Assembly: GCF_001650195.1 (NCBI RefSeq)
Contig: NZ_LXYR01000005.1
Location: forward strand, 1 to 64,000
Direction of reading: 5' to 3'
DNA from: Phormidesmis priestleyi BC1401
GTDB lineage: Bacteria; Cyanobacteriota; Cyanobacteriia; Leptolyngbyales; Leptolyngbyaceae
DNA length: 64,000 nt
Below are positions 2,258 through 5,419 of the stretch, one piece after another. The notes under the pieces are model-generated. The model was not told the origin of the DNA and searched no databases. It saw only the letters and a program-made list of their open reading frames with translations. The first letter of the stretch is position 1; the number at the start of each line of letters is the position of its first letter. The translations under genes and the position numbers were made by a program.

Positions 2258-4207
2258 ATGACTAAGGTTGCCCTGTTGATTGGAGTGAGTGAATATAAAC
2301 CGGGACTCAATCCCTTGCCTGCGGCAGTCAGAGACGTTGAGGCGATGCAGGGCGTTTTGCAGCATCCAGATTTTGGGGCGTTTGACGAGATCAAGCGGCT
2401 GCCAAATCCTGGACTGCTGGAAATGCGGAGCGCGATCGCTGAGTTATTTGGCGATCGCGACACTGATGACCTGGTTTTGCTCTATTTCTCTGGGCATGGG
2501 GTCACGGATGAGTATGGCAAATTTTTCCTGACCAACTGCGACACGCAAAAGGCAGGCAGACTCAACAAAGCAACGGTGGTCGAAGCGGGGTTTGTGCATG
2601 ACCTGATGGAAAACTGCGACTCAGAAAGGCAGGTGATCATTCTAGACTGTTGCCACAGTGGGGCATTTCCAGAAGGCATGAAGGCAAGAGATGCTGGAAG
2701 CACGATCGACTTTCAGCAACAGTTGGGCGGTCGCGGCAGAATTGTCTTGACTTCTTCAGCAGCAACCGAATACTCGTTTGAGCGAGAGGGGGAAGATCTC
2801 GCGATTTATACTCGTTATTTGGTGGAGGGCATTCAAACCGGGGCGGCGGATTTGGATGGAGATGGCGCTGTTTCGGTGAATGAACTGCATGATTATGTGA
2901 GGGAGAAGGTTCATAAAGCCGCTCCAGCGATGCAGCCTGAGCGCTATGTGTTTCAAGATGGCGAAAAGATTTTGTTAGCAAAAGCGCTGATTAGTGACCC
3001 CAAACGCAACTATCGCAAAGAAGTTCAGAAACGAATTAGAGATGGCAAACTTTCGGGTTTATCTAGTCGATCGCTCAGGGAAATTGCTCGTAAAACAGGT
3101 GTATCGATCTCCGACGCTGAAGCGATCGAAGCCGCAGAACTAAAACCTTATCAAGAACTCCAGCAAAAGCTCGACGACTATCGCGAGGCATTTCTAGAAG
3201 CAGTACAAGTAGAATATCCTCTCACCGAAGAGACGCGACTCGAATTGCAAGATTATCAACACGTTTTAGGTCTACGGAATGAAGACATCCAGTCACTCGA
3301 AGCCAACCGTTCTACATTCTCCTTCGAGACTATTACAGTGAATGGTCAAGGGCAGGAAAGCGATCGTCGCATCAACCAAGCCGAATTCTTTACAGAAGAC
3401 CTGGGTAATCAGACCACACTAAACATGGCTTCAATTCCAGGTGGCTCTTTTCAAATGGGAGCCGCTAAGAATGAAGAAGATGCAAACGACGATGAATATC
3501 CGCAGCATTCAGTGACGATCGCGCCTTTTCACATAGGCAAATTTGCCATCACTCAGGCGCAATGGAAAGCGATCTCTACTCTACCCAAAATCAATCACGA
3601 CCTCAACCCAGATCCCTTAATCTTCCCAGATGCCCCAACCCTCACAATCTTCCAAGGAGCAAACCGACCTGTTGCGCTAGTTTCCTGGTTTGAAGCCGTG
3701 GAGTTTTGCGATCGCCTCACCCAAAAAACTGGAAAGCTTTACCGTCTGCCCAGTGAAGCTGAATGGGAATACGCCTGTCGTGCTGGCACTACAACCCCTT
3801 TTCACTTTGGTGAAACAATCTCAACCGATTTAGCAAACTATCAAGGTACTGACCGGACACACGAAGGCACGACTTATTCAGGTTCCTATGGCGAAGGTGC
3901 AAAAGGAATTTTTCGACAACAACTAATCAAGGTCGGTAGTTTTCCACCAAATTGGTTTGGGCTGTTTGATACGCACGGAAATGTTTGGGAATGGTGCGCC
4001 GATTGCTGGCATGATACCTATCACGGCGCTCCGAGCAATGGAAGTGTTTGGGAAGCTGGAGACAGTGAACATCGGCTTTATCGCGGCGGTTCGTTAATCA
4101 GCGATCCGGGGCAATGCCGCTCTGCGTATCGCGAAAAGAACGCACCCGATCATCGCAACATAGACATCGGTTTTCGGGTTGTCTGCCTTTCCCCCAGGAC
4201 TCTTTAG
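2258..4207 (+). CDS. Caspase-like (C14) protease with tandem helical module and C-terminal FGE-sulfatase domain
   Basis: A 649-aa three-part protein. Residues 1-245 form a caspase/metacaspase-type protease: YFSGHG gives the catalytic His80 and DCCHSG the catalytic Cys132. An EF-hand-like loop, DLDGDGAVSVNE (198-209), may bind calcium. Residues 252-291 and 308-348 look like two copies of one helical unit, each starting with YR and ending in an acidic GL/GV-S...E segment; they probably act as an adaptor. Residues 385-648 are an FGE-sulfatase/C-type-lectin-like fold (PGGSFQMGA, LPSEAEWEYACRAGT, GNVWEWC, GFRVVC). Proteins built this way serve in bacterial conflict systems: the lectin-like end senses a ligand and the protease executes a response. 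The C-terminal segment looks like a DGR variable region. There is no signal peptide, so it is cytosolic. Its probable partner is the EACC1-like gene upstream. Confidence 0.88.
   Translation: MTKVALLIGVSEYKPGLNPLPAAVRDVEAMQGVLQHPDFGAFDEIKRLPNPGLLEMRSAIAELFGDRDTDDLVLLYFSGHGVTDEYGKFFLTNCDTQKAGRLNKATVVEAGFVHDLMENCDSERQVIILDCCHSGAFPEGMKARDAGSTIDFQQQLGGRGRIVLTSSAATEYSFEREGEDLAIYTRYLVEGIQTGAADLDGDGAVSVNELHDYVREKVHKAAPAMQPERYVFQDGEKILLAKALISDPKRNYRKEVQKRIRDGKLSGLSSRSLREIARKTGVSISDAEAIEAAELKPYQELQQKLDDYREAFLEAVQVEYPLTEETRLELQDYQHVLGLRNEDIQSLEANRSTFSFETITVNGQGQESDRRINQAEFFTEDLGNQTTLNMASIPGGSFQMGAAKNEEDANDDEYPQHSVTIAPFHIGKFAITQAQWKAISTLPKINHDLNPDPLIFPDAPTLTIFQGANRPVALVSWFEAVEFCDRLTQKTGKLYRLPSEAEWEYACRAGTTTPFHFGETISTDLANYQGTDRTHEGTTYSGSYGEGAKGIFRQQLIKVGSFPPNWFGLFDTHGNVWEWCADCWHDTYHGAPSNGSVWEAGDSEHRLYRGGSLISDPGQCRSAYREKNAPDHRNIDIGFRVVCLSPRTL
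4082..4186 (+). other. Candidate DGR variable region at the 3' end of the caspase/FGE gene
   Basis: This stretch encodes RGGSLISDPGQCRSAYRE and then a segment ending IGFRVVC. In DGR target genes of cyanobacteria the same place carries a C-terminal repeat whose AAC/AAT-rich template codons have been changed. Here the conserved Trp of GGSW is Leu, and the usual Asn positions are mixed (I, S, D, Q, E, A, H, I, D) between unchanged CRSA, PD and IGFRVVC anchors. The assignment is an inference; no template repeat is present in the window. Confidence 0.45.
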
Positions 4208-4280
4208 CTCTTTACCCTCTTGCTCTCTTGCCCTTCTTCACCTTTCGCGCTCTCCGCGATAAAATTTTTATTTTCATAAC

Positions 4281-4343
4281 ATGAATGAACTACCGATTAT
4301 TCAAAAAACCTACGACTTAATCAAAAAGAGCGATCGAGGGTAA
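4281..4343 (+). pseudogene. Truncated start of an Avd-like (four-helix bundle, DGR accessory) gene
   Basis: A 20-codon frame begins MNELPIIQKTYDLIK and then runs into unrelated sequence and a stop at 4341-4343. The first 15 residues match what I recall of the N-terminus of cyanobacterial Avd-family four-helix-bundle proteins, which assist the reverse transcriptase in DGRs; those continue for about 110 more residues. The stub lies 73 bases after the caspase/FGE gene, the usual place for avd behind a DGR target. Homology stops about 5 bases before the 35-bp repeat at 4331. No reverse transcriptase or template repeat follows. The match is short, so confidence is moderate. Confidence 0.5.
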
Positions 4344-4365
4344 TTAGCTTGCGATCGCAAACTCA
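4331..4365. repeat. 35-bp direct repeat, left copy
   Basis: It begins CGATCGAGGGTAATTAGCTT and ends GCAAACTCA, and matches 5188-5222 with a single mismatch (A/G at the twelfth base). The two copies bracket the VapBC-type module and are 857 bases apart. Confidence 0.85.
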
Positions 4366-4457: not shown

Positions 4458-4871
4458 TTAAACACGATCGGATTCGCTGTTTGTTGATGACTGATCATCT
4501 TCCAGAATCTCCCCCATTCGTTTAGCAAGCGTTTGATCAAGTGTGAGGAGTTCTAGATTTAAAGCTTTGGCAGCTGCGGCAATCAGAGCGTCAGGCGTTT
4601 TGAAATTGTGCTGACGACGCAAGTCGATCGTAGTGTTTTCTATCTCTTTAGAGAGTGAGATGTAGTGCATTGTCGCCAAAATACTCTCCACAGACTCAGC
4701 TCCTGTCTGCGTAATTGACTGATATCCCAGTAGCTCAATTCGGGTGATAAAACTGTAAGCACACTCGGCTGGAGTCATCGTCTTTTCGGACAGAATAGCT
4801 AGAACCGCTTCATTTCCTCTAATGATGCCAATAATAAAATTTGTATCCAAAAGGAATCTAATCCCAGTCAC
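4458..4871 (-). CDS. vapC: PIN-domain ribonuclease toxin, VapC type
   Basis: A 137-aa PIN-domain protein. Acidic metal-binding residues are visible in FLLDTNFI (N-terminus), ITRIELLG (middle Glu), KTPDALIAA and LLTLDQTLAKRM (C-terminal Asp residues), matching the four-acid active site of VapC nucleases, which cleave RNA in a Mg-dependent way. Its start overlaps the end of the preceding small gene by 14 bases, the usual antitoxin-toxin coupling. The serine-rich tail after residue 125 is not conserved. The module sits between two 35-bp direct repeats. Confidence 0.85.
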   Translation of the reverse strand: MTGIRFLLDTNFIIGIIRGNEAVLAILSEKTMTPAECAYSFITRIELLGYQSITQTGAESVESILATMHYISLSKEIENTTIDLRRQHNFKTPDALIAAAAKALNLELLTLDQTLAKRMGEILEDDQSSTNSESDRV

Positions 4872-5079
4872 TTCGCATTCTCCTTTGGATCTCTACCGGG
4901 TCGCCACCAAAGCTAGGGGAGTTCTTAAGAATGCCAAAAAAATCTAGTAGAGATTTTTCTTGTTTTAAAGATTTCTCCATCTGTCTTTTCTGTAGCGTTT
5001 CTGCAAGCTTTAAAACAAGAGATGCCTGCTCTTCCGGCATTGTTTTCACCAATTCATAAATTGTCTCTGCGGTGGTCAT
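4858..5079 (-). CDS. Antitoxin partner of the VapC-type toxin
   Basis: A 73-aa protein, first in a two-gene unit with the PIN toxin. It starts MTTAETIYELVKTMPEEQAS, a helical N-terminus common in small antitoxins of cyanobacterial PIN modules, followed by a charged Lys/Glu/Gln stretch and a C-terminal tail (GDPVEIQRRMRSDWD) that probably wraps the toxin. Position, size and the 14-base overlap are the main evidence. I cannot assign it to a specific antitoxin fold. Confidence 0.75.
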   Translation of the reverse strand: MTTAETIYELVKTMPEEQASLVLKLAETLQKRQMEKSLKQEKSLLDFFGILKNSPSFGGDPVEIQRRMRSDWD

Positions 5080-5187: not shown

Positions 5188-5222
5188 CGATCGAGGGTGA
5201 TTAGCTTGCGATCGCAAACTCA
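5188..5222. repeat. 35-bp direct repeat, right copy
   Basis: It differs from 4331-4365 at one base and ends 2 bases before the hicB stop codon. Its position suggests that the toxin-antitoxin module was inserted or rearranged between two repeat copies. Confidence 0.85.
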
Positions 5223-5224
5223 AC

Positions 5225-5419
5225 CTACTCACACAAAGTCCTCGGTGGAATCGGCAACCCATCTTCCTGAATTGCCTCTAAGTGCATTTCAACGGCTTCG
5301 CGCATATTCTCCATCAACTCTTCCACAGTGTCACCAACCGTCACGCAGCCAGGGAGATCAGGAACGTAAGCCGAATAGTTTCCTTCTGCTTTTTCAATCA
5401 CGATCGCATATCGCATCAT
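5225..5419 (-). CDS. hicB: HicB-family antitoxin-like protein without an adjacent HicA
   Basis: A 64-aa protein with the HicB fold signature: MRYAIVIEKAEGNYSAYVPD, then LPGCVTVGDTVEELMENMREA, then a helix LEAIQEDGLPIPPP-like end (here GLPIPPRTLCE). HicB proteins neutralise the HicA mRNA-cleaving toxin, and many short ones have no DNA-binding tail, as here. No hicA-sized frame lies on either side (pnp terminator upstream, direct repeat downstream). It is either an orphan or works with a distant partner. Confidence 0.8.
   Translation of the reverse strand: MMRYAIVIEKAEGNYSAYVPDLPGCVTVGDTVEELMENMREAVEMHLEAIQEDGLPIPPRTLCE

Follow-up and report, generated by a model that had tools for sequence, protein, structure and literature searches.

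The 64,000-nucleotide stretch of Phormidesmis priestleyi BC1401 analysed here (the window) contains a gene for a caspase-like sensor that is followed by a very short open reading frame. This arrangement raises the question of whether a diversity-generating retroelement (DGR) once diversified the sensor, and what became of its machinery. The sensor gene (positions 2258-4207, forward strand) encodes a protein of 649 residues, in which Pfam recognizes a caspase domain (residues 3-221, PF00656, E 9e-21) and an FGE-sulfatase domain (residues 389-642, PF03781, E 7e-59). A preliminary description of this DNA had pointed out GGS, CRSA, PD and IGFRVVC anchors in the FGE tail as well as a leucine in place of the tryptophan of GGSW. 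Both features are confirmed at 4085-4189. Comparisons of variable regions (VRs) and template repeats (TRs) place the VR of the target, GGSLISDP..CRSA..GFRV, at 4085-4180 on the forward strand. Leucine is present in none of the other VR- or TR-like repeats listed, nearly all of which carry tryptophan. The change is private to the window genome, is not of the adenine type, and the tryptophan is retained in the sister genome, ULC007 (G001). The CRSA, PD and GFR anchors belong to the FGE fold as such, and on their own they are no proof of DGR ancestry. It is the elements further downstream, namely the IMH, a pyrimidine-rich tract, a hairpin and the start of avd, that do prove it.

The IMH motif AGGACTC is located at 4196-4202 (forward strand). 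When the IMHs of VRs and TRs were scored at one base, 66 of 72 scorable VRs had G there and 39 of 41 scorable TRs had C or T; by this base the window motif is of the VR type. An FGE VR followed by this motif gives the sensor gene the 3' end of a functional DGR target. The pyrimidine-rich tract (4178-4261, forward strand) is the sole stretch of its kind in the window and is also present in live cassettes. An inverted repeat closes the tract, forming the hairpin TCGCG-CTCTC-CGCGA (4245-4259, forward strand), a weakened form of the TCGCGC-NNN-GCGCGA that occupies the same place in many live cassettes and in the sister. The window hairpin has a 5-bp stem and a 5-nt loop, compared with a 6-bp stem and a 3-nt loop at many live loci. 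In BPP-1, efficient homing needs a hairpin downstream of the VR, and a loop only 2 nt longer brings activity near background (PMC3240598). By this analogy, the window hairpin may be past use.

The next ATG stands 73 bases beyond the end of the sensor gene at 4207, and opens a 20-codon reading frame (4281-4343, MNELPIIQKTYDLIKKSDRG and a stop). Its first 15 residues (MNELPIIQKTYDLIK, 4281-4325, forward strand), which had been said to resemble an Avd start, are identical at 15/15 positions to the beginning of a full-length Avd encoded by G014, which belongs to the same family, and match the other Avds found at 9-13 of 15. Forty-seven full-length avd genes, with the window left out, were turned into a DNA profile, which matches 4282-4324 with 28.1 bits (E 2.3e-8), and the second-best place in the window reaches 3.6 bits. 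Judged by sequence comparison, the avd resemblance of the stub is far beyond chance. The last five codons (KSDRG) and the stop, 4326-4343 on the same strand, read as a non-avd tail. A Pfam search with the bare 20-residue stub gave no match, which is possible at such length. The target thus retains homologous remains of a DGR, as a degenerate locus would: avd codons 1-15 behind the VR, IMH, tract and hairpin.

Intact cassettes in relatives reveal the layout from which such remains could derive. A degenerate pattern for IQKTYD[LF] was run against 390 genomes of the class and matched at 69 places. Most of these hold a full-length avd gene, as a rule preceded by an FGE VR 150-300 bp upstream and followed by a YVDDF-type reverse transcriptase (RT) about 1 kb downstream. 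The cyanobacterial order in these relatives is FGE target, avd, RT and TR. The preliminary description had given target, avd, TR and RT as a frequent order. Among VR-TR pairs of the relatives, which served as controls, 54 of 56 show no more than a single mismatch outside template adenines. Live FGE-target DGRs in G014 (L064), G010 (L073) and G025 (L066) share with the window the target fold, IMH type, pyrimidine tract, hairpin place and avd start. They possess a complete avd, RT and TR, whereas the window is without all three. The best-scoring full-length relative of the sensor outside the genus is a caspase-FGE protein of G040 with 54% identity. At G040:C13 (L080, 4441-6770), a VR and a TR are separated by about 320 bp and differ at 11 positions, 10 of which are template adenines; RT and avd are absent from the 14 kb examined.

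VRs and their downstream regions were compared within 13 genomes, and the sequence shared between targets of one genome ends before avd. The avd start behind the sensor therefore indicates a former cassette in cis. We consider it very probable that the locus is the relic of a DGR that once stood in cis behind the caspase-FGE sensor gene, that its machinery was lost and that the sensor tip became fixed. The earlier proposal that a DGR once diversified this sensor is supported by the avd start, VR-type IMH, tract and hairpin together. The locus might instead never have been a primary cassette: the target, its downstream element and the avd start would have been copied from a DGR elsewhere, as a remote target, and the donor later lost. 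Remote or secondary targets are indeed common in these genomes, a VR with downstream tract and hairpin is common to targets, and several stubs break at almost one same codon. However, in the genomes compared the usual target module does not extend to the avd start, and the stub would need an unusually long copy, which makes this origin improbable. We also did not adopt the codon-15 stub as a functional DNA module, as homology between targets stops before avd and breaks are found at codons 22, 26, 33, 38 and 46 as well.

No machinery was found for this probable cis cassette. The window genome has four RTs, none of which is a DGR RT by motif, and its best score with a DGR RT profile is 52 bits (65 in the sister), compared with 600-700 for full DGR RTs. 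No full-length avd was found in the window genome or in ULC007, the window holding only codons 1-15. A second copy of the VR was not found in the window genome, nor a TR in the sister, and no RT or TR fragment remains at the window locus. These searches covered draft assemblies of 213 contigs (window genome) and about 120 contigs (sister), in which a missed RT is possible. Within this scope they bear out the suggestion that most of avd, the TR and the RT were removed.

The VR itself carries marks of drift. Since template codons read AAC or AAT, live VRs mostly keep C or T at the third positions of variable codons. In the window VR, 6 of these positions hold a purine, the highest count among the VRs listed. 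Against the best foreign TR it shows 26 mismatches, 15 of them away from adenines, which is near the top of the calibration values for a reference that is not the locus's own template. The VR looks long frozen, as it has drifted at bases out of reach of adenine mutagenesis. Since the comparison is to a foreign template, this argument for the frozen state put forward in the preliminary description is strong but not final. The 3' end of the sensor does vary in the close relative, where the comparison had been called for: 5 substitutions and a 3-base gap, grouped into two clusters, separate window and sister. We rejected these differences as proof of recent DGR activity, as the changes are not adenine-only. 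Elsewhere in the FGE domain, 5 of the few differences from the sister fall within 11 codons (3607-3635) and are mostly non-synonymous.

The two clusters could also be read as the work of a DGR that was missed in the draft assemblies and still diversifies the sensor in trans, an activity reported for incomplete loci of Thiohalocapsa (PMC10907252). Yet DGR RT, Avd and TR were not found in two nearly complete genomes, the clusters are not restricted to adenines, and the window VR has many substitutions that adenine mutagenesis cannot produce, all of which renders ongoing diversification highly unlikely. A chance resemblance of stub and DGR-like tail has practically no probability: FGE anchors do occur without any DGR and a 20-codon reading frame alone is meaningless, but the profile match, the correct position and strand, the IMH, tract and hairpin, and the same stub in the sister refute it.

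For a DGR in cis that was later lost, we infer past activity at the locus, the order of events and mobile elements as the cause of the loss. An RT-Avd complex would have copied the TR with errors at adenines, and the cDNA would have been written over the terminal ~100 bp of the sensor gene, with the downstream IMH and hairpin as guides. The machinery would then have been lost, with avd cut after codon 15 and the remaining avd, RT and TR swapped for unrelated sequence: a toxin-antitoxin block between direct repeats in the window, a MITE and other sequence in the sister. The sensor gene would have been retained with a fixed tip.

In the window, a 35-bp direct repeat begins just past the avd remnant (4331-4365) and returns at 5188-5222 with 97% identity. 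The two copies flank a toxin-antitoxin pair on the reverse strand, which comprises a PIN-domain toxin gene (4458-4871, PF01850), standing where avd, RT and TR would be, and an antitoxin-like DUF2281 gene (4858-5079, PF10047). Just outside the repeat lies a HicB-like antitoxin (5225-5419). The sister carries this sensor and this avd start as well. Its avd is interrupted at codons 13-15, where the window avd breaks off, by a MITE of 169 bp. Its terminal repeats are perfect (CGTCAGTTCGA and TCGAACTGACG), and it has a 9-bp target duplication (flanks TTGATCAAA and TTAATCAAA). After the MITE, the sequence resumes with TGGT (codon 16) and then departs from avd. We considered the post-MITE sequence as further avd and rejected it, as the profile match stops at TGGT. 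A short match to the start of the PIN gene is also found behind the sister's stub. A mobile element at the damaged component is seen in the sister avd, as the MITE; the window has the direct repeats with the toxin-antitoxin block instead. A 194-bp MITE of the same family, flanked by the 9-bp duplication TTAAATAAA, stands in front of the window sensor (2031-2224), and the family is multi-copy in the window genome. The sister MITE is a concrete disrupting element, and its insertion may or may not have been the first event.

Divergence between the two species provides an indication of when the loss took place. The caspase domain has a dS of 0.20 and a dN of 0.009; the ratio of 0.04 indicates that the enzyme was kept. 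The 3' two-thirds of the sensor gene (~2993 to 4190) are near-identical to the sister (L063), with a dS of 0 to 0.013 outside the VR, beside a dS of 0.45 in the neighbouring psbC, which points to recent exchange. In the stub, 5 changes are synonymous and 1 is non-synonymous. Avd was therefore probably functional during much of the species' separation, and the synonymous bias suggests separate, late losses in the two species, perhaps at the same codon. A single ancestral loss fits this pattern poorly.

Cuts at codons 14-16 of avd are found in about seven cyanobacterial lineages, this genus included; the others are Tychonema/Phorm 6, a Halomicronema MAG, Phormidium SL48-SHIP, G366, G024 and G223. 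One breakpoint scan (ten loci) was selected for codon-15 breaks, and four to five of its loci (L084, L085, L086, L090, L091) were discarded, since they lack an upstream FGE VR and appear to have matched by chance. The class survey was selected only for codons up to 13, and about 5 of its 10 truncations fall at codons 14-16, for which a rough hand estimate under uniform breakpoints gives ~1e-5. The L-I-K codons 13-15 (TTRATYAA) resemble MITE target duplications, and a target preference is a plausible cause of the breaks. It remains doubtful, as a wider proposal, that avd codons 13-15 are a recurrent breakpoint, perhaps through mobile-element preference, that loss of diversification is repeated and near-site-specific and fixes sensors, and that the avd start is sometimes reused before a new FGE gene.

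Individual stubs differ in what follows the break. In the Halomicronema MAG (L087, 4581-4630), the sequence after avd codon 15 turns to GCTTGCTGAAAAAG.., as at a candidate insertion sequence, and is available for 50 bases more. In Tychonema LEGE 06208 (L083), where codon 3 of the stub is a stop, TTTAATTAA is directly repeated around a few bases after codon 15, much as a transposon footprint would be. In G366 (L153/L154), avd breaks off after codon 16, and the AAATGG of codons 15-16 already contains the start of an FGE target gene. From 1102 onward in L215 (G024:C354, also L146), avd codons 1-14 are fused in frame to a 330-residue FGE protein, the avd start opening a different gene.

Decayed DGRs have been described before. 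Thiohalocapsa PB-PSB1 has degenerate loci in which RT, TR or the accessory gene has been lost or turned into a pseudogene, and transposons and MITE-like repeats occupy the vacated positions (PMC10907252). Window and sister resemble these loci in the loss of DGR components, and the sister also in the MITE inside avd. The difference is that other DGR classes remain in PB-PSB1 and most of its loci still diversify (PMC10907252), whereas DGR machinery was not found anywhere in the window genome. Cyanobacterial remnants include all3226, which retains TR-VR homology although an RT is lacking, and a lone RT in Anabaena sp. 90 (PMC7517822). Like the window, they are traces left after loss of the machinery, but they keep TR-VR homology or the RT alone, while the window keeps the avd start and the target-site elements. 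Orthocaspase-type DGR variable proteins of cyanobacteria combine a caspase-like N-terminus with a hypervariable C-terminus (PMC7517822). The window protein shares this N-terminus but no longer has a diversifier. Among the papers searched, none names Phormidesmis together with DGRs. Degenerate, transposon-damaged DGR loci and orthocaspase targets are already known; new here are a clear fossil record and a possible hotspot.

The locus is a legible example of an immune-like, hypervariable bacterial sensor that became fixed upon loss of its diversifier, and in the sister a disrupting element can still be seen. The recurrence of breaks at codons 14-16 makes transposon target choice testable as a driver of DGR loss. 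Searching for avd starts behind FGE genes reveals fossils in which no RT remains, and makes the loss of DGRs countable across cyanobacteria.
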